DNA from: Eisenbergiella tayi
GTDB taxonomy: Bacteria; Bacillota; Clostridia; Lachnospirales; Lachnospiraceae
Assembly: GCF_001881565.1 (NCBI RefSeq)
Contig: NZ_MPDJ01000003.1
Location: 488,270 to 552,269, forward strand
Direction: 5' to 3'
DNA length: 64,000 bases
The translations under genes were made by a program, and so were the position numbers. Below the pieces are notes generated by a model, which was not told where the DNA came from, made no database searches, and worked only from the letters and a program-made list of their open reading frames with translations. Numbering within the stretch: the first letter of the stretch is position 1; every line of letters begins with the position of its first letter. Positions 11,761-38,091 of this stretch are shown here, one piece after another.

Positions 11761-13182
11761 ATGTCTAATATTTTAAAAGTTACCAGTCCCATAGGGGGAT
11801 ATGAAAACGGCAACAATATAAAAATGAATCCGACCGCAAACGCGGAGGTTCAGGGCGTACAGGCGCCGATTACCCCCCAGAAGGTATCCAGGCCGGGAGG
11901 GCGGGATGATGCAGGTCAGAACAGCACACAGCTGAAACTGAATTATGAATCTAATTTTAACCATTTTATAAAGCTGCTTAACAATTCGCCTGATCAGGTG
12001 GAGGATCTGATGCGGCTTCTTATGGAAAAAAAGGAGCTGCTTGTACAGGCGGGCATGAATAAGGGGACAGCGGAGGATATCGCCCGGTTTTTCTCCATGA
12101 TCGGACTGAAGGAGGGCAATATGTCGGCGTTTCTGAAGGAACAGGCCGATATGGGAATCCGCTACAGAGGACCCTTTTTTGATTTGCTCCGGCAGGTGTT
12201 CAACAACACGGATTCTGTGGATTTAAAGGCGGGGCTCCTTGATTTTGTTAGGCGTTATGGAGACATGGCCTCCGGCGGCCACATTATGCAGTCCATTTCA
12301 GAACTGCTGGAAAAATGCAGGGAACAAATGTTCAGCAAATCAGCCGGTGAACTGGAGCGGATGGCCGCCCGTCTTAAGACGGGAGAGCAGCATGTGAACG
12401 GGGATACACAGAAGAACGCCGCGCTGCTGAAGGAAAAGATTCTTCCTTTTCTGAACAAGTATATATCCGCCACCCATGACAGAGGGCTGCTGCGTCAGTA
12501 TACCGCGCATCTGGCATACCAGCTTGCCCGTTATGAAAACGGAAGCATGGACGGACTGATGCAGACATTTGGAAAATTAATGGGGTTCCAGGGCTTTAAA
12601 AAGGTCTTCGGAAGTATGGATGAGGCGCTGATAGAATCGGTCCTGCGCAAGGCTTCACAGACGGATGAAGGCTGGAATAAGGAGTTCTTAAATATCCTGC
12701 GTTCCGGTATGAACGGGGACGCCAGCACGGAAGGAAAGATGATAAGCCAGAATTTTGTCCATTCCATGCTTTTGAATGAGAGCGTGTATATGCCGGTCCT
12801 CCACCTCATGCTTCCCATGATGGTGGACGGCAGGCTGATGTATTCGGAGCTCTGGGTGGATCCGGATGACAAAGGGGCCGCCGAAGATGACGAGGAGGAT
12901 GGCCGTGTTGTAAAGGCTTTAATTAAATTTGATATTGAAAAACTGGGATTTTTCGACATGTTTTTTGTTTATAAAAACGGGAAGATGGATATGCAGCTGG
13001 ATTTTCCGGATAATCTGAAGGGGAAAGAGAAGGAAATAAGGCAGAATATAAATCGTATCATGGCCGAGAACGGAATCCGGCTGCAGAATCTGGTCACCGG
13101 ATCCAGCCAGGAATCCATACCGATTACGGAAGCATTTCCGAAAATTTACGAAAGGAAGAATGGAGTAAATGTCAGAGTTTAG
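11761..13182 (+). CDS. FliK-like protein, copy 1 (partner of the FlhB-C-like protein)
   Basis: 473 residues, cytosolic or exported, no signal peptide. The C-terminal part (about residues 345-440: YSELWVDPDD, LIKFDIEKLGFFDMFF, IRQNINRIMAENGIRL) has the pattern of the FliK hook-length-control C-domain, in which a DLPELG-like strand precedes an amphipathic helix; this is my reading, not a search result. The N-terminus (SNILKVTSP) and GPFFDLLRQVF are also shared with copy 2 at 35575-36969, so the two are paralogues. It overlaps the FlhB-C-like gene by 14 bases, as does copy 2. FliK normally senses hook length and acts on the C-domain of FlhB, so the pairing suggests a dedicated export-switch pair. 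B. subtilis YlqG/YlqH may be comparable. Confidence 0.6.
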   Translation: MSNILKVTSPIGGYENGNNIKMNPTANAEVQGVQAPITPQKVSRPGGRDDAGQNSTQLKLNYESNFNHFIKLLNNSPDQVEDLMRLLMEKKELLVQAGMNKGTAEDIARFFSMIGLKEGNMSAFLKEQADMGIRYRGPFFDLLRQVFNNTDSVDLKAGLLDFVRRYGDMASGGHIMQSISELLEKCREQMFSKSAGELERMAARLKTGEQHVNGDTQKNAALLKEKILPFLNKYISATHDRGLLRQYTAHLAYQLARYENGSMDGLMQTFGKLMGFQGFKKVFGSMDEALIESVLRKASQTDEGWNKEFLNILRSGMNGDASTEGKMISQNFVHSMLLNESVYMPVLHLMLPMMVDGRLMYSELWVDPDDKGAAEDDEEDGRVVKALIKFDIEKLGFFDMFFVYKNGKMDMQLDFPDNLKGKEKEIRQNINRIMAENGIRLQNLVTGSSQESIPITEAFPKIYERKNGVNVRV

Positions 13183-13510
13183 GGAAACATTGAATAAAAA
13201 AGCCGTAGCGCTCACTTATGATGAGGATAAACAGAACGCGCCGGTTATTGTGGCTTCCGGAATGGGATATATGGCGGAGAAGATTGTGGAGATAGCAACG
13301 GAAAACGGTGTTCCTGTCTATGAGGATGATTCCCTTGCCACAGTCCTTACACAGCTGGAGCTGGGAAGTGAAATACCGGAGGAGCTGTATCAGGCCGTGG
13401 TTGATATTTATGCTTATTTTTTGCATTTTACACTGAACGGGGAAGAGAAAAAAACAGAAGCCGCCAAACCGGAAGTGGTAAGTCAGGAAGAAGAAATGCA
13501 GGAGGAATAA
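13169..13510 (+). CDS. FlhB C-domain-like protein (YlqH/FlhX type), copy 1
   Basis: 113 residues resembling only the cytoplasmic C-domain of FlhB/YscU. Aligned by eye with FlhB of this window, KAVALTYDEDKQNAPVIVAS corresponds to FAVALGYDPERNKAPVVLAK, followed by AEKIVEIATENGVPVYEDD and EIPEELYQAVVDIYAYF. It lacks the membrane domain, and it lacks the NPTH autocleavage site, starting just after it; it thus resembles the cleaved C-terminal fragment. It overlaps the FliK-like gene by 14 bases. Proteins like this can replace the FlhB C-fragment in part in other bacteria; that role here is inference. The tail after residue 90 is polar. Confidence 0.75.
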   Translation: MSEFRETLNKKAVALTYDEDKQNAPVIVASGMGYMAEKIVEIATENGVPVYEDDSLATVLTQLELGSEIPEELYQAVVDIYAYFLHFTLNGEEKKTEAAKPEVVSQEEEMQEE

Positions 13511-13560
13511 GGGAGCGGCATTCATTGCCATATCCTCCTGCCGATTATAAAAGCCGCACG

Positions 13561-13604
13561 AAAAAAGCCATCCCGGCGTTAATACGCTGAGGGATGGCTT
13601 TTTT
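13561..13604. terminator. Bidirectional intrinsic terminator
   Basis: Stem AAGCCATCCC / GGGATGGCTT with a 16-base loop, A-run on the left and T-run on the right. It separates the convergent FlhB-C-like gene (plus) and PilZ gene (minus). Confidence 0.9.
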
Positions 13605-13615
13605 GCCGTCCGATG

Positions 13616-14356: not shown

Positions 14357-15982
14357 TCAGAAGGTACCAAGAACAAGTTCAGCGTCTTTATAATAGATAT
14401 TGCAGTGTTCTTTAGTGTCTTTTATGATGAGATGGGAATGATTGAGACTGATTTCTGTAACACCATAGATAATATCGCTTTTCACACGGCATTTGCTGTA
14501 ATTCGGTTTTGCCCGCAGCATTTTGTCGATTTGTTCATTGAGATCCTTCACCTTTTTTTCGTAAAGAGCTTTTTGTTCACTTAAAATATTGAAAATTTCT
14601 TTTTTGTTTTCAGGAACGGAGGGCTGTTCCGTCAGATAACGGTAATTCAGACGGATTTTTTCGAGTGTTTTAACAGCCTCTTCCAATTCGGCCGACAAAT
14701 GCTCCGTGTTCTTTTCTTCCTGCACAGCCTGGCCGATTGTTATCCGTGTTTCATTATTGGACGGTGTGCCGATTTTCCTGGCCTCCACACTTTTTGACGC
14801 GCTGATATTTCCTCCGATAATGGTACCGCGTCCCGACAGGGCCAGAACGGAGCCTCCGCAGGTGATATTGCTGTTAATGATGGTTTCGGAGGATACATTT
14901 CCGTTGGCCGTTACCCGGACGTGCTCCAGGAAAAGGGAAGAAACATTGCCTCCGGCCTTCAAAAAACCACCGCCGCTTCCATTCATGCCCTTTCTGATTT
15001 CTATGTCCTCCCCTGCCGTGACAGAAGCATTTTCCACCATCCCGTAAACAATAACATTTCCGCCGGCATGAACCGTAAATCCCCGGCAGATATCGTCCAT
15101 TACCAGAATATCGCCCGCAAAATCCAGGTTTCCTACCGAACCGTCCACGCTTCCGGGGATTGTCAGCCGGGATGCCACACGGAAGACGTCGTTTTGAAAG
15201 GAAATCTCTCCGCTTACCTTTGCCGTGAGAGCCGTTTTTTCCTCATTCAGGACCGTATTTTTCCCCTGGGGGATAACCGGTGCGTTTCCTTTTTTTGCGG
15301 GCACGGCATAGCCCAGCACATCGATGCCGTCCGTTCCGTCACCGGGCGGGATGATATCACAGATAACCTCACCGGCTTCAATGTTCTGGAAAAGGTTCAG
15401 ATCCTTATAATTAATACTTCCGCGGGAGTCCTCCTGAAGGTGAATCTGCCTGATTCTGGAAAAATGGTCGACTATTTTTCCGTTTTCACCATCAACGGGA
15501 GGTGTGCCCCGGGCGATGGGAAAGACACAGTAATAGCTTCTGTGCTGATAAATCTGCTTCAGAAGGTCCATGTCGATTCCTGTGGTTATCCCGGTGTCTT
15601 GTGCCGCAGAAATAATATCGTTTTCCTCAGGTTCGGCGCCGCCGTCTGTGGGAGGAAGGAGATACAGAAAAGCGGTCATGCGGTCCGGGGACAGAAGGAT
15701 CCGTACAGCGGCATCCGCGGGCTCCGGATTTTCAGCGTGCTGTCCGCAGATTTCCATTATTTCAGGAAGACGGCTTTGGATGAATTCCAGATCCTGCGGG
15801 TGTTCTGCCTGACGGTTTTGCAGCTCCTGGAGAAGAGTCTGCGCAGAAAAGGCAGTGACGCCGGATTCCCGGGAATCGGTTTCTTTATCAGGAGTAATTT
15901 CGGAGCTTGTGTCCGCAGGCGCCGGAGGAGGGGCTGCAGCGGAGTTTTCTTTTTTATTTTTTGATTTCTTAAAAAATGGCAT
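14357..15982 (-). CDS. fapA: FapA family protein (DUF342), copy 1
   Basis: 541 residues. The FapA/DUF342 family has an N-terminal polar region, a middle beta-helix of short Gly/Val repeats, and a C-terminal coiled coil. All three are visible: an Ala/Pro-rich head with charged tail (residues 1-50), repeats such as VYGMVENASVTAGEDIEI and FLKAGGNVSSLFLE, and a helical segment ELEEAVKTLEKIRLNYRYLT before a final beta part. In Vibrio, FapA affects flagellar assembly and localisation through its interaction with glucose-PTS signals; the role in Clostridia is unknown to me. A strong sigma-28 promoter lies upstream. Copy 2 is at 33830-35545. Confidence 0.8.
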   Translation of the reverse strand: MPFFKKSKNKKENSAAAPPPAPADTSSEITPDKETDSRESGVTAFSAQTLLQELQNRQAEHPQDLEFIQSRLPEIMEICGQHAENPEPADAAVRILLSPDRMTAFLYLLPPTDGGAEPEENDIISAAQDTGITTGIDMDLLKQIYQHRSYYCVFPIARGTPPVDGENGKIVDHFSRIRQIHLQEDSRGSINYKDLNLFQNIEAGEVICDIIPPGDGTDGIDVLGYAVPAKKGNAPVIPQGKNTVLNEEKTALTAKVSGEISFQNDVFRVASRLTIPGSVDGSVGNLDFAGDILVMDDICRGFTVHAGGNVIVYGMVENASVTAGEDIEIRKGMNGSGGGFLKAGGNVSSLFLEHVRVTANGNVSSETIINSNITCGGSVLALSGRGTIIGGNISASKSVEARKIGTPSNNETRITIGQAVQEEKNTEHLSAELEEAVKTLEKIRLNYRYLTEQPSVPENKKEIFNILSEQKALYEKKVKDLNEQIDKMLRAKPNYSKCRVKSDIIYGVTEISLNHSHLIIKDTKEHCNIYYKDAELVLGTF

Positions 15983-17162: not shown

Positions 17163-17471
17163 ATGTTTATTGTACCGATAACAAAAATGGAGCCTTCTCT
17201 TACTCTTGAGGAACTGAAAAAGAGTGAAGGAAGTCAGCTGCCGTCTGAAGGGAAAGAATTCGGCAGCTTTTTAAAGGAAGCGATCAGGGAAGCCGACCAG
17301 GCCCTGCAGGAAACTTCGGAAATGGACAGAAAGCTCGCTCTGGGAGAGATAGATGATCTGCATTCCGCCATGATTCAGGCGGAACAGTCAGCTGCTGCGG
17401 TGGAGTTTACTACCCAGCTGACCAGCAAAGCGGTAAGCGCATACAATCAGATAATGGGAATGCAGGTATAA
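17163..17471 (+). CDS. fliE: Flagellar hook-basal body protein FliE
   Basis: 102 residues. FliE joins the MS ring to the proximal rod. Family features: FGSFLKEAIREADQALQET, then KLALGEIDDLHSAMIQAEQS and the end FTTQLTSKAVSAYNQIMGMQV, matching the common AYQEIMRMQV ending. GAGGTG precedes the start by about 8 bases. First gene of the long early operon, so fliE and fliF head the rod and MS-ring genes. flgB and flgC, usually just before fliE, are instead 35 kb away at 52193. Confidence 0.93.
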   Translation: MFIVPITKMEPSLTLEELKKSEGSQLPSEGKEFGSFLKEAIREADQALQETSEMDRKLALGEIDDLHSAMIQAEQSAAAVEFTTQLTSKAVSAYNQIMGMQV

Positions 17472-17491
17472 ACTTGCTGCGGTGGAGATAG

Positions 17492-19102
17492 ATGAGTATA
17501 AAGGATAATGTGAAGGCTAAGGTGGAAAGCAATAAGACCCTTAACCGCTTTTTTGGCGGAAAGAAGCTTGTTTTGGCGGTCGGTATCGCAGCAGCTGTTT
17601 TGGTTGCATTGGGAGCAGCGATTTTTCTTAATGTAAAAAATACGGGAAAATATGAAGTGCTGTTTCCGGGAATATCTGTGGATGAGAATACGGAAGTGTA
17701 TACCGTGCTGAGAAGCCGCGGGGTGGATGCAAAGCGTAATGAATCGGGAGAGGTTACGGTTCCGGAAGCGGAGCTGGGGGATATTATGCTGGATATGTCC
17801 CTGCTGGGATATCCCAAGACGGCCCTGCCTTTTAATATTTTTTCTGATAATACGGGTTTTACGACCACGGAATTCGAGAAGAAGCAGTATCTTCTTTTGA
17901 ATCTTCAGGATCGCCTGGAGCGGACGCTGAAGGATATGAGCGGGATTTCCAATGCCATCGTAACCCTGAATGTTTCTGATGACAGTATCTATGTCTGGGA
18001 TGAGCAAAGCTCGGACAGCACAGGTTCTGTCTCTTTGACGTTAGTGCCTTCTTATGAGCTGTCCCCGGAAAAGGTCGCAGCCATCAAGAAGCTGGTGGCC
18101 AACAGCGTGCCCAGGCTTCTTCCGGAAAACGTTGCCGTAATCAATGCCGTGACCATGGAAGAACTGCAGGGGCAGAGCCTGGACAGCGGGAGCTATTACG
18201 GGCTGGATCGTCTGGATTTTGAGTCCAAGGTGGAAAAGCGTCTGGAAGATAAGATCATGAATGTACTGACTCTGGCATATAAGCCCAGCCAGATTCGTGT
18301 TTCCGCCACAGTCGTCATCGATTATGACAAGATGATTACGGAAAATATGCAGTATGTTCCCCAGGAAAACGGCAGCGGGGTTGTGGGAAAGTCGGAAGAA
18401 AGCAAATCCCAGGGCTCCACCCAGGGGGCGGGCGGTGTGGCCGGAGAAGAAAATAATACCGATATTCCTTCTTACGGGACGGCGGACAGCGGGCAGAGCG
18501 GGACGCAGTCGGAGGAGTATTACAATAACGTGGATTATCTGGTGGGATATATAAAGCAGCAGATAGAAAAGGATAATGTAAAGCTGCAGAAAGCCACCGT
18601 GTCGGTAACGGTTAATGATAATAATCTGACGGAAAACAGAAAACAGCAGCTGATTGACACGGTTTCCAAGGCTGCCAATATTGCGCCGGAGGATATTGTC
18701 ATAACCAGCTTCCGGCAGACTGAGGTTCAGCCGGAAACTGTCCAGCCGGAGAAAAAAGAGACCGAACCGCAGGGTATTGTATGGGACAGGAATACACTCT
18801 TTCTTGCAGGAGCCGGGCTGCTCATCCTTCTGCTGCTGATTTTTCTGCTTGTTCACAGGAGCAGAAGACATAACAGAGAAGATGAAGAGATGTTTGCCCG
18901 GGCGGAGAACCAGGGGGATGGAGCCGCCGTTCTGGAGCGGGCCGGTGAGGGAGCCGTTGTGAATACGATAGGAAGCGGAACCCAGGATCCTGTGGGAGCA
19001 GCAGAAGAAAATCCCATGGATCAGGTACGCAGCTTTGCCAAAACCAACCCGGAAATTATTGCGGCTATGATTAAGTCCTGGCTGAAGGAAGGAAATGAGT
19101 AA
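17492..19102 (+). CDS. fliF: Flagellar MS-ring protein FliF
   Basis: 536 residues. FliF forms the MS ring in the membrane, the first basal-body structure. A transmembrane helix (LVLAVGIAAAVLVALGAAIFL) lies near residues 28-48, a second (LFLAGAGLLILLLLIFLLV) near 432-450, and the periplasmic YscJ/FliF domain between them (LVPSYELSPEKVAAIKKLVA; IRVSATVVIDYDKM). The C-terminal cytoplasmic tail, SFAKTNPEIIAAMIKSWL, is the usual FliG-binding segment. It overlaps fliG by 8 bases, giving coupled translation of ring and rotor. Confidence 0.95.
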   Translation: MSIKDNVKAKVESNKTLNRFFGGKKLVLAVGIAAAVLVALGAAIFLNVKNTGKYEVLFPGISVDENTEVYTVLRSRGVDAKRNESGEVTVPEAELGDIMLDMSLLGYPKTALPFNIFSDNTGFTTTEFEKKQYLLLNLQDRLERTLKDMSGISNAIVTLNVSDDSIYVWDEQSSDSTGSVSLTLVPSYELSPEKVAAIKKLVANSVPRLLPENVAVINAVTMEELQGQSLDSGSYYGLDRLDFESKVEKRLEDKIMNVLTLAYKPSQIRVSATVVIDYDKMITENMQYVPQENGSGVVGKSEESKSQGSTQGAGGVAGEENNTDIPSYGTADSGQSGTQSEEYYNNVDYLVGYIKQQIEKDNVKLQKATVSVTVNDNNLTENRKQQLIDTVSKAANIAPEDIVITSFRQTEVQPETVQPEKKETEPQGIVWDRNTLFLAGAGLLILLLLIFLLVHRSRRHNREDEEMFARAENQGDGAAVLERAGEGAVVNTIGSGTQDPVGAAEENPMDQVRSFAKTNPEIIAAMIKSWLKEGNE

Positions 19103-20111
19103 TATGGCTACAGAAGATAGAAGCGCTGCGGAGAAGGCGGCGGCGGTGATATCCGTTATCGGGGTGGAAAATGCATCCGAGGTCCTCAGGCACCTTTCCG
19201 AAGGGGAAATCGAACAGTTGTCCGTGGAACTCTCCCGTCTTCCCAAGATTTCAAGCGGCGAGCTGGAAGAAATATCAAAAGATTTTTATGAATGCTGTGT
19301 GACAGAAAAAGTGATAGCAGGCGGCGGCCGGGAATACGCCAAAGAGGTGCTGGAAAAGGCGTTCGGGCAGCAGCAGGCAAGAAGCATGATGGACAGGGTC
19401 AGCAAAGCCCTGCATACCAAATCCTTTTCTTTTATAAGGAAAGTTGATTATAAATCCCTGATGGCTGTCATTCAGAATGAACATCCCCAGACACTGGCCT
19501 TTATCCTCTCTTATGCCAACGCGGAGCAGGCTTCCAAAATCATAGCGGAGCTGCCGGGAGATATCCGGATTGACGTAGTGGAGCGTATCGCCGGCATGGA
19601 ACGGGCCTATCCTCCCATTGTTAAGGTGGTTGAGGAGGTGGTCCGGGGAAAAATCGGGATATCCGCGTCAGAAGATGCCATGGAGATAGGCGGGCTGAAT
19701 TATGTGGCTGATGTGATGAACCACGTGGACCGCAGCACGGAGAAGGATATTTTCGATGAGTTGAATATCAAGAATCCCCGCCTGGCGGAAGGCGTCAGAA
19801 AGCTCATGTTTGTATTTGAGGATATCGCCTATCTGGATCCCATGTCCATCCAGCGTTTTATCCGGGATACCGATTCCAGGGATCTGGCCGTGGCCCTGAA
19901 GGTGGCTAACAGAGATGTGACCAATGCGATCTTTTCCAATATGTCAACCCGTATGAGGGAAAGCATACAGACGGATATGAAGTTTCTGCATAATCTCCGG
20001 ATGAGTTCGGTAGAGGAAGCGCAACAGAGGATTGTTTCCACCATCCGCCGCCTGGAGGAGGAAGGGGAAATTGTGATTTCCAAAGATGGAAAGGATGAAG
20101 TAATTGTCTAG
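19095..20111 (+). CDS. fliG: Flagellar motor switch protein FliG
   Basis: 338 residues, full length. FliG carries the torque-generating surface of the rotor and meets MotA. N-terminal KAAAVISVIGVENASEVLRH; middle EHPQTLAFILSYANAEQASK with the EHPQT family motif; C-terminal charged region (AVALKVANRDVTNAIFSNMS) including the helix that meets the stator. It overlaps fliF at its start by 8 bases and fliH at its end. Confidence 0.96.
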   Translation: MSNMATEDRSAAEKAAAVISVIGVENASEVLRHLSEGEIEQLSVELSRLPKISSGELEEISKDFYECCVTEKVIAGGGREYAKEVLEKAFGQQQARSMMDRVSKALHTKSFSFIRKVDYKSLMAVIQNEHPQTLAFILSYANAEQASKIIAELPGDIRIDVVERIAGMERAYPPIVKVVEEVVRGKIGISASEDAMEIGGLNYVADVMNHVDRSTEKDIFDELNIKNPRLAEGVRKLMFVFEDIAYLDPMSIQRFIRDTDSRDLAVALKVANRDVTNAIFSNMSTRMRESIQTDMKFLHNLRMSSVEEAQQRIVSTIRRLEEEGEIVISKDGKDEVIV

Positions 20112-22160: not shown

Positions 22161-22170
22161 GAGGCAGTCA

Positions 22171-22626
22171 ATGAAAAAGTTTAACTTTCCCCTGGAACGG
22201 ATGCTGAATTATCAGGAACAGGATCTGGAAAAGGAACGGGGGATTATGAGCCGGCTTCTGGCAGCCAGGACGGGGCTTGAAGAAAAAAGGCTGAGACTTA
22301 TGGAGGAAATGGAAGAAATACAGTCCGAACGGGGAAAGGAAATCCGTAAAGGAACCACCATTTTTTCCCTGCGCTCGTCCAGCGTGCTGCTGGTCAGCGG
22401 GAAGAAACAGTTGGAGGAAATCCGGAATGAACTGAACCGCATCGATGAGGAAATCGAAAAACAGCGCCAGATAGTGGTCAGCGTTTCCCAGGAAGTGAAA
22501 AAGCTGGAAAACCTGAAAGAAAAACAGTTGGAGGAATACCGCCATGCAGAAGCAAAGGAAGAGCAGGAGATGATATCTGAGCATGTTTCCGGCAGCTTCG
22601 TGCGCAATGGCGTTTCCTATATATGA
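22171..22626 (+). CDS. fliJ: Flagellar protein FliJ
   Basis: 151 residues, almost wholly coiled coil. FliJ is the central stalk of the export ATPase and helps recycle chaperones. It begins KKFNFPLERMLNYQEQDLEKE, like other FliJ proteins, with a continuous heptad-rich stretch to EQEMISEHVS. AGGAGG precedes the ATG. Directly after fliI, as is universal. Confidence 0.88.
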   Translation: MKKFNFPLERMLNYQEQDLEKERGIMSRLLAARTGLEEKRLRLMEEMEEIQSERGKEIRKGTTIFSLRSSSVLLVSGKKQLEEIRNELNRIDEEIEKQRQIVVSVSQEVKKLENLKEKQLEEYRHAEAKEEQEMISEHVSGSFVRNGVSYI

Positions 22627-28313: not shown

Positions 28314-28318
28314 GCAAA

Positions 28319-29350: not shown

Positions 29351-31399
29351 TTGAAACGATATAACATAGTGGTGACTGCCGGTGTAATCGGAATTATTTT
29401 CCTGATTTTGATACCCCTCCCTACCTTTTTATTAGACTTTTTCTTTATATTGAACATTACCCTGTCGCTGGTGATTCTGTGTATGGCGATGTATATCAGG
29501 GAAACCCTGGAATTTTCCGTTTTTCCCTCGATGCTGCTGATCACCACACTTTTCCGGCTGGGACTTAATATTTCCTCCACCCGGAAAATCCTGTTTGACA
29601 ACGGATATGCAGGACAGGTGGTAAAGACCTTCGGAGAATTTGTCATCCGGGGAAATGCCATTATCGGATTTATTATTTTCCTGATTATCGTGTTGGTTCA
29701 GTTCATCGTAATTACCAAAGGCTCCGAGCGTGTGGCTGAGGTTGCGGCACGTTTTACCCTGGATGCCATGCCGGGAAAACAGATGGCGATTGATGCAGAT
29801 CTCAATACCGGCCTGATCGATGAACAGGAAGCCAGAATCAGAAGATCCAAGGTACAGCGGGAAGCCGATTTCTTCGGTTCCATGGACGGTGCCACGAAGT
29901 TTGTAAAAGGAGATGCCATTATCTCTATCATCATTACGCTGATCAACTTTATAGGCGGCATTCTGGTAGGGACAATGAACAAACAGGGAAGCATCACCGA
30001 GATCATGCAGATATACACCACCTCCACAATAGGCGACGGCCTGGTATCCCAGATACCGGCGCTGCTCATATCTGTTGCTACCGGTATGATCGTAACACGC
30101 TCCGCTTCCGAAAACAGCCTCAGCGAAGAGGTGACAAGGCAGTTCCTCGCCCAGCCCCGCGTCATTATGATGGCCGGTGCGGCCGCCGCGTGCCTGAGCC
30201 TGATACCGGGATTTCCGGTAATTCAGATACTCTGTACATCGGCAGCATTGCTGGCAGGCGGTTATTACCTGCAGCGGAAACAGAAAAATCTGATAGAAGA
30301 AACCGTTCCCGGAATGGTGGAAGCGGAAGTGACAAGCGAAGCTGATTTTTATAAAAATATGGACAATGTCTATGGGCTTCTGAATGTGGAGCAGATAGAA
30401 ATGGAGTTCGGCTACAGCCTGATTCCCCTGGCGGATGAAAGCAACGGCGGGAATTTCATAGACCGTGTGGTCATGTTCCGTAAGCAGATGGCGCTGGAAA
30501 TGGGCTTTGTCATCCCTTCCGTCCGGATCAAGGACAGCGGGCAGCTTAATCCGAATCAGTACAGCATCCTGCTGAAAGGAGAAGAAGTGGCAAGAGGAGA
30601 TATCCTTATGGATCATTTCCTGGCGCTTTCTCCCGGCCCGGACGCGGATGACATCCCGGGAATCGACACCATAGACCCGGCCTTTCACATCCCTGCCAAA
30701 TGGATCAGTGAGGATAGGAAAATACAGGCGGAAATGGCAGGCTATACCCTGATCGATCCGGCTTCGGTAGTCATCACACATCTGTCGGAGGTAATCAAAG
30801 AACATCTTTACGAACTGCTCAACCGTCAGGAGGTCAACAACCTGCTGGAAAACCTGAAAAAGACCAATGCGAGCATTGTGGAGGACACAATCCCCGGCGT
30901 TATCAGTCCGGGCAGCCTGCAGAAGGTGCTGGCAAATCTGCTTAGAGAAGGAATTCCCATCCGTGATATGGAAACGATCATTGAAACGGTGGGCGATTAC
31001 GGAAAACAGATCAAAGATACGGATATGCTCACGGAATACGTGCGCCAGGCGCTGAAACGCACCATTTCCCACCGCTTTTCCGAAGCAGGACAGATGAAGG
31101 TGATCAGCCTGGATGAAAAAATCGAGAACATGCTCATGGCCTCCGTGAAAAAGATGGAAACAGGCTCCTATCTGGCCCTGGATCCTTCCTCCATACAAAG
31201 CATCATTACCGCTTCCACCGGGGAAATCAACAAAATCAAGGATCTGGTTAATGTTCCGATTGTGCTGACCTCACCCGTGGTGCGGATTTACTTTAAAAAG
31301 CTGATAGACCAGTTTTACCCCAATGTTACGGTGCTGTCGTTCAGTGAAATAGATAATAATATCCAGATTCAGGCGCTTGGAAATATCGTCCTGACGTAG
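29351..31399 (+). CDS. flhA: Flagellar export gate protein FlhA
   Basis: 682 residues. FlhA is a core component of the export gate. Eight membrane segments fill the first 300 residues (for instance GVIGIIFLILIPLPTFLL); FHIPEP-region LINFIGGILVGTMN; then the cytoplasmic domain to NIQIQALGNIVLT. The start is TTG, directly abutting the fliY1 stop, with little ribosome site, so it is probably coupled to fliY translation. No flhF or flhG follows, although they normally stand between flhA and fliA in Firmicutes. Confidence 0.95.
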   Translation: MKRYNIVVTAGVIGIIFLILIPLPTFLLDFFFILNITLSLVILCMAMYIRETLEFSVFPSMLLITTLFRLGLNISSTRKILFDNGYAGQVVKTFGEFVIRGNAIIGFIIFLIIVLVQFIVITKGSERVAEVAARFTLDAMPGKQMAIDADLNTGLIDEQEARIRRSKVQREADFFGSMDGATKFVKGDAIISIIITLINFIGGILVGTMNKQGSITEIMQIYTTSTIGDGLVSQIPALLISVATGMIVTRSASENSLSEEVTRQFLAQPRVIMMAGAAAACLSLIPGFPVIQILCTSAALLAGGYYLQRKQKNLIEETVPGMVEAEVTSEADFYKNMDNVYGLLNVEQIEMEFGYSLIPLADESNGGNFIDRVVMFRKQMALEMGFVIPSVRIKDSGQLNPNQYSILLKGEEVARGDILMDHFLALSPGPDADDIPGIDTIDPAFHIPAKWISEDRKIQAEMAGYTLIDPASVVITHLSEVIKEHLYELLNRQEVNNLLENLKKTNASIVEDTIPGVISPGSLQKVLANLLREGIPIRDMETIIETVGDYGKQIKDTDMLTEYVRQALKRTISHRFSEAGQMKVISLDEKIENMLMASVKKMETGSYLALDPSSIQSIITASTGEINKIKDLVNVPIVLTSPVVRIYFKKLIDQFYPNVTVLSFSEIDNNIQIQALGNIVLT

Positions 31400-31409
31400 A
31401 AAGGAAAAA

Positions 31410-32183
31410 ATGTTGGCGGAGTTGACGGAAACCCGGGAAGCCCGGATGCTGAAGGAATACCAGCAGACCGGCAGCCCGGAGTTAAGAGAAAAACTGATAA
31501 ATGAATATATCCACCTTGTGCGTTCCGCCGCGGTGCAGATGAGAGGCATGGCATCCGGCTATGCACAGGAAGAAGATTTGGTGAACCAGGGCGTACTTGC
31601 GCTGATGGATTGTCTGGAACGATACGATGAAACAAGGGGCGCGAAGTTTGAAACCTTTGCATTCCTGCGGGTAAGAGGTTCGCTGATAGATTTTGTACGA
31701 AGCCAGGACTGGGTGCCTCATCGGGCCCGTTCCCTGCAGAGACATATCGAAGAAGCCTTCCGGCAGCTGGCAAATGAAAAAATGAGGGAACCGGATGCGG
31801 CGGAGGTAGCCGCTTACATGGGCCTTCCAACAGAAAAAATTGAGAGCCACCTGCAGTATATGGATCGTGCCTCCATCCTTTCTTTTGAAGGGATGATGCA
31901 GGATGCACAGGAAAATGCCAGCCGGATGGAACCGGAAAGCCCGGATCTTTCTTTAAGGCCGGAAGAAAGCTACTGCCGGCAGGAGCTTACGGAAGTGCTG
32001 GCCCGGGCTGTGGAGGGACTTACGGAAAAAGAACGGCTGGTCATCACCCTTTACTATTATGAAGAATTAAAATATGCGGATATCGCCCGGATTCTGGACG
32101 TAGTGGAATCCCGCGTATGCCAGATCCATACGAAGGCTGTCAAAAAACTCAGAGACAGTCTGCGGGAATATATGGAAGGTTAG
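31410..32183 (+). CDS. fliA: RNA polymerase sigma factor FliA/SigD (sigma-28)
   Basis: 257 residues. Sigma-28 drives late flagellar and chemotaxis genes. Region 2: SGYAQEEDLVNQGVLALMDC and RYDETRGAKFETFAFLRVRG; region 3 follows; region 4: LTEKERLVITLYYYEELKYA with the HTH DIARILDVVESRVCQIHTKA. Its antagonist FlgM is encoded twice in the window. It lies 10 bases after flhA. Candidate target promoters are seen before flgM1, cheA, fapA1, flagellin and flgM2. Confidence 0.95.
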   Translation: MLAELTETREARMLKEYQQTGSPELREKLINEYIHLVRSAAVQMRGMASGYAQEEDLVNQGVLALMDCLERYDETRGAKFETFAFLRVRGSLIDFVRSQDWVPHRARSLQRHIEEAFRQLANEKMREPDAAEVAAYMGLPTEKIESHLQYMDRASILSFEGMMQDAQENASRMEPESPDLSLRPEESYCRQELTEVLARAVEGLTEKERLVITLYYYEELKYADIARILDVVESRVCQIHTKAVKKLRDSLREYMEG

Positions 32184-32193
32184 GAGGAAACCG

Positions 32194-32931
32194 ATGTTAT
32201 CAGGTTTTTATACGGCGGCTTCAGGCGTGCTCACCAATCAGAGGGCACTGAACCTGAACGCCAATAATATGGCAAATGTTAAGACACCCGGTTATCGGGA
32301 ACAAAGACTGATTAAAACCACCTTTGAAGAAGAATTCCTGCGTATGCAGGGAGGAAAATCCACTTCCATGGGAAGCGGATCACTCATGACGGCGGCCGCA
32401 TCCCAGGCGGTTTCCTTTAAACCCGGGGACCTGACCGAGACCGGAGGCGCCTATGATCTGGCCCTTGGCGGAGACGGTTATTTCGTCATCCAGGGAGAGA
32501 ACGGAGAGTATCTGACCCGGAACGGCAATTTCCGCATGGATGCCGAAGGATATCTGAGCCTGAACGGAATAGGAAGGCTCATGGGAGAAAATGGCCCCGT
32601 CCGTCCCGGAAATGAAGGTTTTCAGGTAGATGAACAGGGTACCTTCCGGAACGGAAAGGGAGATATCCTGGGAACGCTCAGAATCGTGATGCCGGATATA
32701 CCCGAAAATATGCAGTTCTATGAAAACGGAATGTTCCAGGCGGGAAATGCACAGCTTCTTCCCGTGAATACCGCCGTGATTCAGGGCAGCCTGGAGGGCT
32801 CCAACGTGGACTTGAGCGCGGAAATGACCAGAACCATGGAAATCCAGCGCGCGTTTCAGTCCTGCAGCAAGGCGCTTACCATCATCGACCAGATGAACCA
32901 GAAGACGGTTTCGGAAATCGGAAAAATCTGA
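32194..32931 (+). CDS. flgF: Flagellar rod protein of the FlgF/FlgG family, first of a pair
   Basis: 245 residues with the rod-family ends: N-terminal MLSGFYTAASGVLTNQRALN and NANNMANVKTPGYREQ, and C-terminal EGSNVDLSAEMTRTMEIQRA followed by FQSCSKALTIIDQMNQ. FlgF and FlgG are rod proteins; in Firmicutes the first is often called FlhO or FlgF. I assign FlgF by position, before a clearer FlgG. It starts 10 bases after fliA. Confidence 0.78.
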   Translation: MLSGFYTAASGVLTNQRALNLNANNMANVKTPGYREQRLIKTTFEEEFLRMQGGKSTSMGSGSLMTAAASQAVSFKPGDLTETGGAYDLALGGDGYFVIQGENGEYLTRNGNFRMDAEGYLSLNGIGRLMGENGPVRPGNEGFQVDEQGTFRNGKGDILGTLRIVMPDIPENMQFYENGMFQAGNAQLLPVNTAVIQGSLEGSNVDLSAEMTRTMEIQRAFQSCSKALTIIDQMNQKTVSEIGKI

Positions 32932-33009
32932 GGGTAAAAAGCGCAGCGCAGAATTCACGCGCGCATACACCCTGCATACGGCGAAGCGTGCAGATGGGAG
33001 AAAAGAAAG

Positions 33010-33777
33010 ATGAATACAGCATTTTATACGGCGGTTTCCGGGATGAGGACCTTTCAGTCCGCCCTGGATATCACCGCCAATAACATGGCAAATGTGAACA
33101 CTACGGCTTACAAGGCAGAAAGAGGAGCCTTTCAGGATCTGCTGTACACGCAGATGGACGTCAAATCCGGAGAGCTTCTTACCGGACACGGCGTAAAAAT
33201 GAGTGATGTGCAGCCGGTTTTCATCCAGGGGGCATTTGAAAAAAGCGGACAGCCGCTGGATTTTGCCATTACAGGAGACGGTTTTTTCGCCGTGGAAAAA
33301 GGAAACGGAGGAACCCAGCCGCTGTATACCAGGGATGGCTCCTTCAAAATATCCGTATCGGAGGAGGGGGACTTCCTGGCTACCAGGGACGGATATTTTG
33401 TGCTGGACGGAGATGGAAAGCGCATCCAGCTGACCAAAAAGGTTGTGAAAGATAAAGACGGAAAAGAACAGGCCACCAATCAGCTGGACCTGGACGGCCT
33501 GAATAAAAAAATAGGCCTGTTTACCTGTGATAATCCGGAAGGACTCGTGCATATGGGTAATAACAGATACCGTTCCGGAGAGTTTTCCGGCCAGTGGACA
33601 GCGGTTAAGGAACAGACAAACAGCAACCGTATCGTATCCGGAGCCCTTGAACTGTCCGGCACCGAGCTCTCTTCGGAAATGGTGAATGTCATTGAGGCCC
33701 AACGCGCATTCCAGCTGAACGGAAGGATTGTGACAACTGCGGATCAGATCGAAGAGATCATCAATAATCTGAGATAA
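33010..33777 (+). CDS. flgG: Flagellar basal-body rod protein FlgG (FlhP-like)
   Basis: 255 residues. Ends: MNTAFYTAVSGMRTFQSALD, ITANNMANVNTTAYKAERG, and C-terminal LELSGTELSSEMVNVIEAQR with AFQLNGRIVTTADQIEEI. Distal rod protein, exported. It follows the FlgF-like gene by 78 bases and precedes fapA2. The paralogues differ through most of their length. Which of the two is the true FlgG cannot be settled from sequence by eye. Confidence 0.8.
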   Translation: MNTAFYTAVSGMRTFQSALDITANNMANVNTTAYKAERGAFQDLLYTQMDVKSGELLTGHGVKMSDVQPVFIQGAFEKSGQPLDFAITGDGFFAVEKGNGGTQPLYTRDGSFKISVSEEGDFLATRDGYFVLDGDGKRIQLTKKVVKDKDGKEQATNQLDLDGLNKKIGLFTCDNPEGLVHMGNNRYRSGEFSGQWTAVKEQTNSNRIVSGALELSGTELSSEMVNVIEAQRAFQLNGRIVTTADQIEEIINNLR

Positions 33778-33829: not shown

Positions 33830-35545
33830 ATGAAGGAAAAAAGTCTGCTTTATAATCTGTTTATGAAATACCTCGGGGAAGATGGGGAGGAAGAAGCAAA
33901 GCAGGAAACCCCTCTGTCGGACCACGGGGGGGACGATAAACAGGAACATATGCATGATGGCGGAGAAGCAATTCCTCAGGAGACAGATGAGGAGCTTTCC
34001 GAACAGCCGGATATACCGCGGAAAACGGAGCCTGAGCCCCTGATTGAAACCGTGGAAGACTGGAATGAAGCGGAGCTGCAGAAGCAGAGGGAGCTGGACG
34101 CCAGAAGCCGGGGCGCGGAAGAACCGGACTCTGAGGAAATGCCTGCAGAACCGGAAGAAGAGATCGTCCCATCCAGGGATGCTTCCCTGGAGCTTGCTAT
34201 AACAGATGATAAAATGAAAGCAACCATGATGGTATGGGAACCGGAAGGGGACGGGGCGGATATAACAGAGGAGGCCCTTTACAAAGCCCTTCAGGAGAAG
34301 CATATCACCTATGGGATTGATGAGGAAAAAATCCGTGATATCGCGGAAAACAAACGTTACCGTCAGCTGTTTGTCATTGCCTCGGGCAAGCCTGCAAAGG
34401 ACGGAACCAGCGGGAAAATAAAGGATTTTTTTCCGAGACAGGTACAGCTGAAATATGCCACCAAACAAAATGGGGGCATTGATTTTAAAAACATGAACCT
34501 GATCCATAATGTAAAGGAAGGCGATGTGGTATGTCAGATCACCCGTCCCACAGACCCGGAAGACGGCATGAATATTTACGGACAGCCGGTCCGGGGCAGA
34601 CAGGGCGCTATGCCGGCCATCCCCCAGGGAAAAAACATCACCTATAACGAGGACGGCACACAGCTCGTGGCGGCCTGCGAGGGCAATCTGACCTTCCGCA
34701 GCGGCCGTTTCCATGTGGAAAAGGTATTCGAAGTGGCCGGAAATGTGGATAATTCCATTGGAAATATTAATTTCAGCGGCAGCGTATTTATCCAGGGAGA
34801 TGTATTTGAGGGCTATGAAGTACGCGCCAAAGGGAATATTACGGTTATGGGAATGGTGGAGGGAGCCGCGCTCATCGCGGGCGGAGATATCCAGCTCCAG
34901 AAAGGAATGCGCGGCATGCACTGCGGCGTCCTGGAAGCGGGAGGCGATATTACCGCCAAATTCCTGGAGGACTGTACCATTCACGCCGGCAGCAATATCC
35001 AGGCGGAATATATCATCAACTCCCAGGTTGCCTGTGAAAACAATCTCACCCTTGTGGGACGCAGGGGAGCCTTTATCGGGGGAAGCTGTTCCGTATACAA
35101 TGAAATGAATGTCAAAGCGGTAGGGGCGGCGAGCCACATCACCACCTCCGTCACGCTGGGAGCCACCCCGCAGCTTATTGCGGAAGCGGAAAAAGCGGCC
35201 CGGGAAATTCGTGAAGTATCCGAACAGATGGAAGAAAACCGCAAAAATACGGCCTGGCTTACCGAAAAGCAGAACCGGGGAAGCCTGACGCCCGTCCAGC
35301 AGCAGAGACTGAGCGCCCTGAACCTGGAAGCATCGGTAAACAAACTCAAACAGCGTCAGCTGCAGAGCAAAGCAGCACAGCTGGCAAAACAAATCCGGGA
35401 GGTAGGAAGGACCCGCCTCCAGGCGGATGAGGTTTATCCCGGTACGATTATCTGCATCGGGGATTCCAGGCTTGTGGTTATGGATAAAGAAGACAGTGTG
35501 AGCTATTACTATCTGGACGGAGAAATCCGCAAGGGCATGCTCTGA
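33830..35545 (+). CDS. fapA: FapA family protein (DUF342), copy 2
   Basis: 571 residues. Same architecture as FapA1: polar acidic head (about residues 20-125), N-terminal globular domain, a beta-helix core (VEGAALIAGGDIQLQKGMRG and GVLEAGGDITAKFLEDCTIH), a coiled coil with AEKAAREIREVSEQMEENRK, and a final beta domain with YYYLDGEIRKGML. The NINFSG and GKNITYN segments parallel FapA1. It stands at the head of the second accessory module, after flgG and before the FliK-like gene, all on the plus strand. Confidence 0.82.
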   Translation: MKEKSLLYNLFMKYLGEDGEEEAKQETPLSDHGGDDKQEHMHDGGEAIPQETDEELSEQPDIPRKTEPEPLIETVEDWNEAELQKQRELDARSRGAEEPDSEEMPAEPEEEIVPSRDASLELAITDDKMKATMMVWEPEGDGADITEEALYKALQEKHITYGIDEEKIRDIAENKRYRQLFVIASGKPAKDGTSGKIKDFFPRQVQLKYATKQNGGIDFKNMNLIHNVKEGDVVCQITRPTDPEDGMNIYGQPVRGRQGAMPAIPQGKNITYNEDGTQLVAACEGNLTFRSGRFHVEKVFEVAGNVDNSIGNINFSGSVFIQGDVFEGYEVRAKGNITVMGMVEGAALIAGGDIQLQKGMRGMHCGVLEAGGDITAKFLEDCTIHAGSNIQAEYIINSQVACENNLTLVGRRGAFIGGSCSVYNEMNVKAVGAASHITTSVTLGATPQLIAEAEKAAREIREVSEQMEENRKNTAWLTEKQNRGSLTPVQQQRLSALNLEASVNKLKQRQLQSKAAQLAKQIREVGRTRLQADEVYPGTIICIGDSRLVVMDKEDSVSYYYLDGEIRKGML

Positions 35546-35574: not shown

Positions 35575-36969
35575 ATGGCTGACATCTTGAAGGTAACATC
35601 TCCGGTAATCGGCAAGAACATCGTCCAACAGAATAAAAACGTAACAGACCCTTCCATCCCCTTTGATCTCCAGGAAATCAGCCACATCGCAAGAAATCCC
35701 AACAGCAGCGCCCTTCTTTCCCAGCATAACATCTTCCAGCGGGATGCGGGCGCCGCCACACTGATGAATCTGCTCAAGGATCCGGATGTGACCGTGAACT
35801 ACCTGAAAAACATCACTATGCTTGAAGAAATCATCAGCCTTCTGCCCGTGAACAACAACACGGTAACGGAAGAAATCCAGCAGCTTTTCCAGGCTCTTTT
35901 GATCCATCCCGATTCCATTGTGGATGAAATGATGCGCCAGGAATACTCCTCCACCCTTTTTAAAGGCCCGCTTTTTGATTTCCTGCGCTCCCTGGTCAAA
36001 GAAAATCCCGAGCTTCGCACAGAAACCGCAGAATTACTGAAAGCGATCAATTCCATCCTTTCCAGAAAGGATGCGGAAGACTCCGCCGCCAATGGCTTTT
36101 CCTTCCTTGCGGAACAGCTCTCCGCCAGCAAAAACCTGGCGCCCCGCCTCCGGGAACTGGCGGCAGGCTTCCGCCAGGATGACGGAACCCTTTTCCAGGA
36201 ACTCAAATTACAGGCACAGGCCCTTCTTAAGGAAATGGAGGGGAGCATCCTGTATACCCCCCAGGCGGCCCGGGTAGTGCCGAACATCATCTATAATCTT
36301 TCCCGCTACCGGGAAAATGAAGCCTTTCTCCAGGAAGCCCTGTTCGGCCTTCTGGTCAGGATGAACAGCAGAGAGGCCAAGGATCAGCTGCGTATGCTTG
36401 TGAAGGAATATATAGAACAATTCCCGAAAGCCGACAACAGCCGGACACGCTCCCACGTAGTGGATACCCTGGCGGAAATCATTGCAAAACAGGATAAGGA
36501 AAGCGGCATGCAGAGCTTAAACGGCGACCGCATCGAAAAAATCCTCACCAGCCTTCTTTCCTCCCCCTGCAATTACACGCCCCTCCTGCATTTCGTCATA
36601 CCTGTGGACTTCCAGGGAATGAAAGCCTTCTCCGAACTGTGGATCGATCCTGACGACCGGGAAGCTTCGGCAAAGGACGGCGGAGACGGCAGCCATATCC
36701 ACATCCTGATTACTTTTGACATTGAGGGGATCGGACAGCTGGAAGCGGAATTCATGGTGAGCGGAAAAACCATCAATTTTCTTCTGCTCTGCCCCAAAGG
36801 CTATGTAAAGCTTTTTTCAGGCCTTCTTCCCGAATTTAAGAAGATTGCGGAACAAAAAGGATACCAGATGAGCGATGCCAAGGTGGAGAAGCTGGAGCAT
36901 ATCCGCTCTCTGATGGATGTATTTAAAACCCTGCCCTACAGGAGGACCGGCGTAGATGTCAAAATTTAA
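35575..36969 (+). CDS. FliK-like protein, copy 2 (partner of the FlhB-C-like protein)
   Basis: 464 residues. Paralogue of the gene at 11761: the same start (MADILKVTSPVIGK), GPLFDFLRSLVKENPE in place of GPFFDLLRQVF, and a similar C-terminus with FSELWIDPDDRE, then LITFDIEGIGQLEAEF, KIAEQKGYQMSDAKVEKL and final RRTGVDVKI. The C-part again looks like the FliK C-domain. It overlaps the FlhB-C-like gene by exactly 14 bases, as does copy 1, so the pair has moved or been kept as a unit. No signal peptide, as expected if it is exported by the flagellar route or stays in the cytoplasm. Confidence 0.6.
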   Translation: MADILKVTSPVIGKNIVQQNKNVTDPSIPFDLQEISHIARNPNSSALLSQHNIFQRDAGAATLMNLLKDPDVTVNYLKNITMLEEIISLLPVNNNTVTEEIQQLFQALLIHPDSIVDEMMRQEYSSTLFKGPLFDFLRSLVKENPELRTETAELLKAINSILSRKDAEDSAANGFSFLAEQLSASKNLAPRLRELAAGFRQDDGTLFQELKLQAQALLKEMEGSILYTPQAARVVPNIIYNLSRYRENEAFLQEALFGLLVRMNSREAKDQLRMLVKEYIEQFPKADNSRTRSHVVDTLAEIIAKQDKESGMQSLNGDRIEKILTSLLSSPCNYTPLLHFVIPVDFQGMKAFSELWIDPDDREASAKDGGDGSHIHILITFDIEGIGQLEAEFMVSGKTINFLLLCPKGYVKLFSGLLPEFKKIAEQKGYQMSDAKVEKLEHIRSLMDVFKTLPYRRTGVDVKI

Positions 36970-37438
36970 GAAAAATAAAGCCGCCGCCCTCAAATACAAC
37001 ATGGAAGAGGATACGGCCCCGGTGGTCATAGCCTCCGGTTACGGCCCCATGGCCGAAAAAATCATAGATATTGCCGAGCAGAAAGGCATTCCTGTTTTTA
37101 AAGATGACAGCGCCGCCTCTCTTTTGTGCATGCTGGACGTGGGAACCAACATACCGGTGGAGCTGTACGAGGTGATAGCGGCTATTTATGGAAAACTGAT
37201 GGAAGCTTCTGCCAGAACCCATGGGAATTCTCCGGCTGTGGGAAAAACTCCGGCAGCAGGAAAAGTTCCAACCGCAGGAAAATCACCAACCGCAGGAAAA
37301 ACATCCGCTTCCGCAGAATATAAGACCCAAAATACGGAAGCCGGCCCGGAAAAAAGAACGGCACGCCCCTCTCTCAGGGACGGACTCGTATCTGCCGGGA
37401 AAAAAGAAACGGAGAAAGACAGCACAGAAACTAAGTGA
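36956..37438 (+). CDS. FlhB C-domain-like protein (YlqH/FlhX type), copy 2, with repeat tail
   Basis: 160 residues. The first 90 residues match FlhB's cytoplasmic part from just after the cleavage site: KAAALKYNMEEDTAPVVIAS, AEKIIDIAEQKGIPVFKDD, NIPVELYEVIAAIYGKLME. The NPTH motif is absent. The tail has four imperfect hexapeptide repeats (SPAVGK, TPAAGK, VPTAGK, SPTAGK) not present in copy 1. Coupled to the FliK-like gene by a 14-base overlap, then 14 bases to the PilZ gene. Confidence 0.75.
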   Translation: MSKFKKNKAAALKYNMEEDTAPVVIASGYGPMAEKIIDIAEQKGIPVFKDDSAASLLCMLDVGTNIPVELYEVIAAIYGKLMEASARTHGNSPAVGKTPAAGKVPTAGKSPTAGKTSASAEYKTQNTEAGPEKRTARPSLRDGLVSAGKKETEKDSTETK

Positions 37439-37452
37439 GGGGAAACAACAGC

Positions 37453-38091
37453 ATGATTGATCTGTCGGAAGGATATATAGGCTCTTCCTGTGTGGTGAAA
37501 GCCAAGAACAACGATTTGTTGATGATGGGTACCCTGCACAGGATTAAGACCAGCTTTATAGATATCAGCAGTACCAGGAATGAACTTCCTGTAATAAGCT
37601 ATAACCTCTTTGTCAAGGTGGAAGTCTACAATGCACGGCTGGGATTCCGCGTGCTTATAGGCAGAGTCTATATTTCCAATCAGGAATTGATTCGGATTAT
37701 AGACTTAAACGAAGCTACTAACGATGAACGCCGCGAATATTTCCGAATCAGTACGAGACGTGACGGCATTATCTTTAACCTCACCCACCAGCAGCCGGAC
37801 GGCACAATAAAAGAATACCAGGATTTCAAGGTTTCCCTCGTGGATATCAGCCTGGGCGGCCTGATGTTCAGGACAAAGGAAGTGCTGGGAGTGGGAGAAA
37901 CCTTCAGCATTGTAATCCCCGCCATGAAAGAAAACATGCTCTATGAATGCACCATCCGCAGAAGTGTGGAGAAACCGGAAAACTACATCGGTTACGGCTG
38001 TGAATTCAGTGAGATGACCAATCTGCAGGAGGATATCCTCTACCGCTATATCTTACGGTGCCAGAACGAACAGCTTAAAAGAATACGTTGA
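37453..38091 (+). CDS. PilZ-domain flagellar brake-like protein, copy 2
   Basis: 212 residues. An N-terminal YcgR-type domain (to about residue 90, ending VYISNQELIRIIDLN) is followed by a PilZ domain with both cyclic di-GMP motifs: RxxxR in ERREYFRIS and DxSxxG in LVDISLGGLMF. GAGGGG at 37437-37442 sets the start at 37453; a GTG at 37435 sits on the preceding stop and lacks a ribosome site. YcgR-type proteins bind the motor when cyclic di-GMP is high. Its counterpart at 13616-14242 has an altered first motif. Confidence 0.85.
   Translation: MIDLSEGYIGSSCVVKAKNNDLLMMGTLHRIKTSFIDISSTRNELPVISYNLFVKVEVYNARLGFRVLIGRVYISNQELIRIIDLNEATNDERREYFRISTRRDGIIFNLTHQQPDGTIKEYQDFKVSLVDISLGGLMFRTKEVLGVGETFSIVIPAMKENMLYECTIRRSVEKPENYIGYGCEFSEMTNLQEDILYRYILRCQNEQLKRIR

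Follow-up and report, generated by a model that had tools for sequence, protein, structure and literature searches.

Two whole flagellar systems in Eisenbergiella tayi, each with its own FliK-like protein, standalone FlhB C-domain, PilZ protein and FapA

INTRODUCTION

The locus analyzed here is a window of 64,000 nucleotides (C17:488270-552269) in the 7.56-Mb genome of Eisenbergiella tayi, in which genes for a FliK-like protein, a standalone C-domain of the export protein FlhB (FlhB-C), a PilZ-domain protein and FapA each occur twice. Among its closest described relatives are YlqG/YlqH, which we take to be the names of the Bacillus and Clostridia pair, and FlhX of Campylobacterota, presumably a free FlhB C-domain. 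In the available parts of two sources, FlhX is counted among the flagellar export parts, and Nitratiruptor has flhX-fliK away from its main cluster (PMC9321776, PMC10746217). In the Salmonella model, as the available part of a 2026 study presents it, the cleaved FlhB C-domain docks early substrates; the FliK C-domain ejects it, export turns to late substrates, and this removal is the key step of the hook-to-filament change (PMC13344023).

An earlier note on this DNA had read the four genes as a module doubled beside single basal-body and export genes, acting as a second layer of export control. Here, we compare the locus with the rest of its genome and with related genomes.

RESULTS

The genome carries two whole flagellar systems

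We found that the genome carries two whole flagellar systems, I and II. The window start falls inside flagellar gene set I, and most of set II is contained in the window. Matched against the window's own genes, the ~33 kb to the left (C17 ~455-488 kb) hold a second flagellar core set, with counterparts of fliE, fliF, fliG, fliI, fliJ, fliK, flgD, flgE, motA, motB, fliM, fliY, fliP, fliR, flhB, flhA, sigD, flgF, flgG and fliD and a weak match to fliH; this set continues into flgN-flgK-flgL at the window start. Pfam confirmed FliK, FlhB and CheC in the left stretch and gave its FlgM 24.8 bits against a cut-off of 25, while fliQ, fliZ, fliL, cheY, cheD and fliS were named there by eye. Genome-wide, there are two FlhA, both on contig C17, and two full-length FlhB. 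Rod-type genes are present in both stretches (system I left of the window, system II within it), and each system keeps a true FliK of its own besides the FliK-like protein. Within the window, flgN, flgK, flgL and DUF6470 are doubled, one of each per system, and fliY is doubled with both copies belonging to system II.

Copy 1 of the four genes is placed at the end of system I and copy 2 inside system II. The four genes therefore occur twice because each of two whole flagellar systems has its own accessory genes, and they appear to be doubled alone because the window edge cuts off the core of system I. The claim that the basal-body and export genes are single does not survive, and selective doubling of the four genes was rejected, because the flagellar core, too, is present twice. 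Cut by a window edge, the duplication of a whole system can, as this case illustrates, resemble a small module. Among 120 genomes of the family (its own included), 66 with FlhB and 54 without, this genome alone has two full-length FlhB. Both systems also occur in genome G125, the second case among 13 genomes of the genus, with the sets >100 kb apart.

All eight open frames of the four genes lie where the earlier note had put them, on the same strands, and Pfam confirmed FapA, PilZ and the FlhB C-part. These frames and the flagellar genes around them are, by window position:

11761..13182, + strand: copy 1 (system I) FliK-like protein, 473 amino acids; open frame, hhalign, C-domain fold match to 5cuk
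13169..13510, + strand: copy 1 standalone FlhB C-domain, 113 amino acids; Bac_export_2, 81.0 bits
13616..14242, - strand: copy 1 PilZ-domain protein; Pfam PilZ, motif columns HEDFR and NISAGG
14357..15982, - strand: copy 1 FapA; Pfam FapA_N and FapA
33830..35545, + strand: copy 2 (system II) FapA; Pfam, with fapA within 1.5 kb of FlhB-C in 12/12 system II loci
35575..36969, + strand: copy 2 FliK-like protein, 464 amino acids; model, with fold matches to 5cuk and 2rrl
36956..37438, + strand: copy 2 standalone FlhB C-domain, 160 amino acids; Bac_export_2, 55.3 bits
37435..38091, + strand: copy 2 PilZ-domain protein; Pfam PilZ, motifs REYFR and DISLGG intact
532..11659: right end of system I, with flgN, flgK, flgL, DUF6470 and cheB/R/W/A (che names by eye)
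17163..33777, + strand: system II basal-body and export genes, fliE to flgG (several gene names by eye)
22623-24035, + strand: system II true fliK, within the fliE-flgG run
29351-31399, + strand: system II flhA, within the fliE-flgG run
57942..59000, + strand: system II full-length FlhB with NPTH

Over the aligned parts, copies 1 and 2 are 33% (FapA), 21% (FliK-like) and 46% (FlhB-C) identical, and the two PilZ proteins match over 23 residues only; judged by sequence, the two copies are old paralogues.

The copies appear to have parted together with the two systems

We used quick trees without bootstrap, with rows labeled A (the usual family type), I (system I) or II (system II). In the FlhA tree (34 rows), A, I and II each stand behind a supported branch (100, 100 and 99), with one Oscillospiraceae row beside II. 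The FlhB tree concurs (A supported at 100, I at 87), with system II represented by two rows only. The same division recurs for FlhB-C (71 rows, 98 columns), where I (96) and II with Oscillospiraceae (98) are supported and A stands at 89, and for the FliK-like protein (43 rows, no type A), where I and II with Oscillospiraceae are both supported at 100. In the FapA tree, A is set apart from I and II together (100, supported), and the system I group rests on long branches: copy 1 FapA is on one, so that its joining the Lacrimispora group (SH-aLRT 89) could be spurious, and the FapA of G085, on an even longer branch, falls outside. Row L061 carries a wrong class A label in the FapA and FliK-like trees; it is G015, a Diplocloster of system II identical to L084. 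PilZ was left out, its two forms being too far apart.

The same I/II split in FlhA, FlhB, FlhB-C and the FliK-like protein suggests, as far as quick trees tell, that the copies of the set parted together with the whole systems. The earlier note had asked whether the two copies split at the same node in each family; the FliK-like protein and FlhB-C follow the FlhA/FlhB line, and the FapA tree agrees only weakly.

FliK-like protein and FlhB-C form a conserved pair, usually a trio with PilZ

The FliK-like protein and FlhB-C are a conserved pair, which is usually a trio with PilZ. The hook-to-filament change in export is an old question, and a free FlhB-C and a switch-type partner are found in nearly all sampled genomes that bear FlhB: FlhB-C in 64/66 (one a contig-end fragment) and the FliK-like protein in 63/66, each in 0/54 genomes without FlhB, a count that for the FliK-like protein leaves out a weak row in G084, a genome without FlhB. 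FapA scores above cut-off in 58/66 and 0/54, respectively. In the 120 genomes, all 15 FliK-like genes of classes I and II are adjoined by FlhB-C (one a contig-end fragment). Conversely, among 65 FlhB-C, the 15 of classes I and II all adjoin a FliK-like gene, and 38 adjoin a YlqG-type gene.

Beyond this sample, we assembled 44 class I, class II and Oscillospiraceae loci and set aside four that end <400 bp from the pair. A PilZ-profile match lies within 4 kb in 35 of the remaining 40, a figure that is a description and not a chance test, as the profile was built partly from the same loci, many of them close kin. In contrast, none of 29 type A (YlqH-type) loci has such a match in its ~1.5-kb flanks. 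The trio is often divergent from cheA-W-R-B; it stands often beside cheA in class I, beside cheA in Oscillospiraceae loci and behind fapA in system II. Profile A5 matched in 1/149 genomes drawn from the phylum, namely the window's own, so classes I and II seem rare outside the family; matches also include two metagenome-assembled genomes labeled Paenibacillaceae (label as given).

The FliK-like stop and the FlhB-C start overlap by 14 nucleotides in both window copies and in 11/44 loci; in most of the remaining loci, the gene-calling tool took an earlier start. This overlap suggests that translation of the two genes may be coupled.

FapA behaves differently. In the 120 genomes, it lies within 5 kb of FlhB-C for 4/15 of classes I and II (the two window copies plus two system II genomes) and for 0/50 others. 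In the larger set of loci, it lies within 5 kb in 12/12 of system II and in 9/10 of the Lacrimispora group (the tenth too short, one of the nine with a broken pair), and, within the sequence fetched, in 0/13 other class I loci and 0/6 Oscillospiraceae loci with FlhB-C. Among the fetched loci, FapA is thus near the trio of system I only in the window's own locus and in the Lacrimispora group. Its identity is clear, as Pfam places both domains above their cut-offs (FapA_N and FapA, PF03961 and PF20250; copy 1, 135 and 198 bits; copy 2, 138 and 197 bits). G125, the closest two-system relative, has a single FapA above cut-off, in system II, and no counterpart above it in system I. In the available part of a neighborhood study, FapA and the flagellar sigma factor are placed in one sub-module (PMC11607428), which makes the position of fapA behind sigD-flgF-flgG in system II ordinary. 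FapA is a flagellar gene that shares a gene run with the trio in system II, and we rejected it as a constant member of the set, since it was not found near the trio in many of the fetched loci and G125 has just one above the cut-off. Consequently, the idea that the four genes form one system, co-occurring and co-localizing, holds for the FliK-like/FlhB-C pair (15/15) and usually for PilZ (35/40), and it fails for FapA as a core member.

Two cell wall genes were seen near these loci. A VanY-type D,D-carboxypeptidase, which may open the wall for the flagellum, is encoded between PilZ and flagellin (window 38128-38979) and was seen in 9/12 system II loci. A lytic transglycosylase (SLT, 93-106 bits) stands near the FliK-like/FlhB-C pair in three class I loci:

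L070 2211-3326: lytic transglycosylase
L074 2992-3867: lytic transglycosylase
L078 5595-6338: lytic transglycosylase

The standalone FlhB C-domain has an altered pocket in classes I and II

Both copies of FlhB-C match the C-part only of Pfam Bac_export_2 (PF01312), at 81.0 and 55.3 bits against a gathering score of 24.4. Their alignment to FlhB in solved structures begins at residue 274, just past the NPTH cleavage site. Neither is FlhB proper, with a membrane part and NPTH: they have 113 and 160 amino acids, and the alignment columns of both copies hold no NPTH. All 22 full-length FlhB examined (22/22) have this motif; the class I/II FlhB-C listed all lack it. The nearest NCBIfam family is TIGR00789 (flhB_rel), with 98.1 and 81.2 bits, under the curated cut-off of 117.35, which was reached in 0/120 family genomes.

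The early-substrate pocket of Salmonella FlhB consists of A286, P287, A341 and L344, according to the available part of the source (PMC13344023), and we mapped these residues onto FlhB-C through a structure alignment and a multiple alignment. The pocket reads A-P-A-L in 22/22 FlhB and in 29/29 type A FlhB-C. In all 40 FlhB-C of class I (21), class II (13) and Oscillospiraceae (6), the fourth position is Tyr, not Leu; the third is Val or Ile in 21/21 of class I, and the first is Ser in 16/40 (row L094 being incomplete at the first two positions). As the rows share common ancestry, the change from Leu to Tyr may reflect one or two events. It offers a single-residue handle for work with purified proteins.

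The FliK-like protein has a predicted switch-type C-domain

Neither copy of the FliK-like protein has a Pfam or NCBIfam match above any cut-off, and neither matches PF02120 (Flg_hook, FliK), whose sequence cut-off is 29.8 bits. The forms of systems I and II align end to end (hhalign E-value 2e-35), and alignment with the YlqG type is confined to the C-domain. YlqG-type relatives exceed the Pfam FliK cut-off in 2/2 tested (38.2 and 49.4 bits). The YlqG-type profile also catches the C-domain of some genes adjoining flgD, and 3/3 checked are true FliK.

AlphaFold models were made of full-length copy 2 (mean predicted local distance difference test [pLDDT] 58.3, with residues 1-128 below 50) and of the copy 1 C-domain (pLDDT 75). 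For copy 2, only 5cuk (the PscP switch domain, 1.00) and 2rrl (the FliK C-domain, 0.98) exceed a Foldseek probability of 0.6 among the 50 matches listed of 723. For the copy 1 C-domain, 5cuk was matched with a Foldseek probability of 1.00 (E-value 0.026) and ranked first by Z (5.3; root-mean-square deviation 3.1, 79 residues aligned). Searching the Protein Data Bank with profiles built from YlqG-type sequences and from the C-domain of FliK-like proteins gave no plausible relative. There is moderate support, from these models, for a C-domain fold like that of type III switch domains (FliK C, PscP).

The N-part differs from that of true FliK. Hydrophobic residues make up a fraction of 0.33 and 0.34 in the two copies, versus 0.22 and 0.19 in the true FliKs of the two systems. 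In the copy 2 model, residues 132 to ~287 form a helical bundle, for which the top structure matches are bundles from many unrelated proteins. A ruler function is not supported for the N-part, which is without FliK-like low complexity and is modeled, in part with low confidence, as helices. In sum, for the FliK-like member of the ruler/switch pair proposed earlier, the fold gives moderate support to FliK-likeness of the C-domain, and the N-part does not look like a ruler.

Conservation of c-di-GMP motifs differs between the two PilZ forms

Both PilZ proteins exceed the Pfam cut-off of 22.5 bits (PF07238; copy 1, 35.7; copy 2, 48.0). We take RxxxR and [DN]xSxxG to be the motifs of PilZ domains that bind cyclic di-GMP (c-di-GMP). 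Copy 2, with REYFR and DISLGG, fits both, and copy 1 has HEDFR at the RxxxR columns (altered) and keeps NISAGG; the motifs expected of the c-di-GMP sensor proposed earlier are thus intact in copy 2, and RxxxR is altered in copy 1. RxxxR occurs in 19/19 system II and Oscillospiraceae rows (two row pairs being from the same genome), and [DN]xSxxG is kept in 35/35 PilZ rows.

Separately, a ParA-like gene stands beside a ComFB-domain gene in each system (window 42404-43680, - strand; L065 10893-12375), with Pfam ComFB scores of 71.1 bits in the window and 61.5 in system I. If ComFB is a c-di-GMP receptor, as we take it to be, this would be a second possible c-di-GMP input.

Other features in and near the window

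A sigma-D-type promoter pattern, for which we used what we take to be the consensus, had one match in the window, inside a flagellin gene, versus 0.57 expected by chance. Scanning 9500-17500 for sigma-70 sites yielded 17, versus 12.7 (standard deviation 3.6) in shuffles. Where the two flagellar systems meet, window 16059-16441, lying between fliE and FapA copy 1, holds a 73-nucleotide perfectly complementary inverted repeat and two further pairs of 45-46 nucleotides, perhaps a mobile or regulatory element. A 675-amino-acid protein with a weak beta-helix match is encoded at 5003-7030, between flgL-DUF6470 and cheB, and is also present in system I of G125. The DUF6470 pair (window 3647-4267 and 47260-47865, 33% identity) is doubled, one per system, with flgN-flgK-flgL.

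DISCUSSION

Our best explanation, to which we assign a probability of roughly 0.7, is that two flagellar systems each have an accessory pair or trio, proposed to act as a switch mimic. From gene content and trees, the presence of two systems is all but certain. The trio is probably one functional unit; that it acts on the export switch is a tentative proposal, at somewhat below even odds. Mechanistically, the FliK-like protein would bind the standalone FlhB-C through its switch-type domain, and the bound FlhB-C would stay in the cytosol, mimicking the cleaved FlhB C-domain. Joint production of a switch-type protein and a free FlhB C-domain suggests that the two form a complex imitating the ejection step. 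Such a complex would tune or reset the early-to-late export switch of true FliK and FlhB, and the PilZ of system II would make the switch mimic depend on c-di-GMP, a gate that we consider possible though rather unlikely.

Several findings weigh against this explanation. Alignment with the YlqG type by hhalign has low probabilities, 49% for copy 1 (E-value 2e-4) and 16% (E-value 1.6e-3). The Foldseek E-values are weak (0.07 and 0.026), copy 2 against 5cuk ranks just 36 by Z (5.6), copy 1 is practically tied by Z between 5cuk (5.3) and an unrelated chain (5.0), and an unrelated enzyme reaches a probability of 0.89 for copy 1, with 2rrl at 0.57; the fold match is therefore support and not proof. 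Among FlhB-C outside classes I and II, 12/50 have no detected FliK-like gene alongside, and 5/40 loci have no PilZ match near the pair. Finally, RxxxR is absent from copy 1 PilZ and from 14/15 other class I sequences, most of which retain the first Arg and have Lys in place of the second. From the RxxxR pattern, a c-di-GMP role appears plausible for the PilZ of system II and doubtful for that of system I.

Other explanations fit parts of the data. A four-gene module doubled on its own as a second layer of export control would account for all four genes standing together in both window copies and for FapA adjoining the pair in 12/12 system II loci; with the flagellar core doubled too, and no FapA seen in the neighborhood of the trio in 13 loci of class I, in 6 of Oscillospiraceae or in G125 system I, we regard it as highly improbable. 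Much less far-fetched is that the genes are neighbors of convenience, each with a separate task: PilZ would brake the motor, FapA would serve in placement and FliK-like/FlhB-C would work as a pair. In favor of this account, the motor is a frequent target of PilZ proteins, the presence of FapA varies, and 5 of the 40 loci have no PilZ match nearby. Against it, the trio persists across layouts, often by cheA in class I, by cheA in Oscillospiraceae and behind fapA in system II. We consider it unlikely.

The pocket bears on a further alternative, in which FlhB-C is a spare part that replaces the FlhB C-domain ejected by FliK and docks early substrates again. FlhB-C does match most of the cleaved domain, and the YlqH-type class keeps A-P-A-L throughout (29/29). 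However, Tyr takes the place of the pocket Leu in every member of classes I, II and Oscillospiraceae (40/40), and Val or Ile that of the pocket Ala in class I (21/21), and we judge the spare part to be unlikely, slightly more so than separate tasks. The pocket Tyr of classes I and II argues against simple replacement of the substrate dock and for a decoy or resetting part. In its most specific form, the switch mimic would be a c-di-GMP-controlled decoy: a soluble complex of the FliK-like protein and pocket-altered FlhB-C would antagonize or reset FliK/FlhB switching, the PilZ of system II would let c-di-GMP stop or restart assembly and not rotation alone, and the PilZ of system I would no longer read c-di-GMP in the usual manner. 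All these parts holding together is improbable, though well ahead of a module doubled on its own.

A literature search that covered few subscription journals found no functional study of the trio, FlhB-C or the FliK-like protein, nor did it turn up a description of the link to PilZ, of the altered pocket or of two systems arranged in this way. Among described systems, YlqG/YlqH resembles the locus in its gene order, with a standalone FlhB C-domain behind a FliK-like gene. In the family, this type is separated from flhB by >30 kb or by lying on a different contig, and a UPF0102 gene, which we take to be yraN, follows the pair in 5/5 such neighbors scanned. It differs in having no PilZ in its flanks (0/29) and an A-P-A-L pocket, whereas classes I and II usually come with PilZ and an altered pocket. 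PilZ proteins of the YcgR/MotI type presumably consist of an N-part plus a PilZ domain, as do those of the window; unlike them, the window PilZ proteins are linked genetically to a switch-like pair, and copy 1 is without RxxxR. As in the locus, the FlhX gene adjoins fliK, although the available part of PMC9321776 makes no mention of PilZ with flhX-fliK. The likeness to the FliK/PscP switch domain and the cleaved FlhB C-domain, as far as the available part of PMC13344023 describes them, lies in the predicted C-domain fold and the matching FlhB part; in contrast, the N-part of the FliK-like protein is helical and less low in complexity, and the FlhB part, which has no NPTH, is encoded by a gene of its own. 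Altogether, the best reading of the sequences is that the trio would be a variant of the YlqG/YlqH (FlhX) kind.

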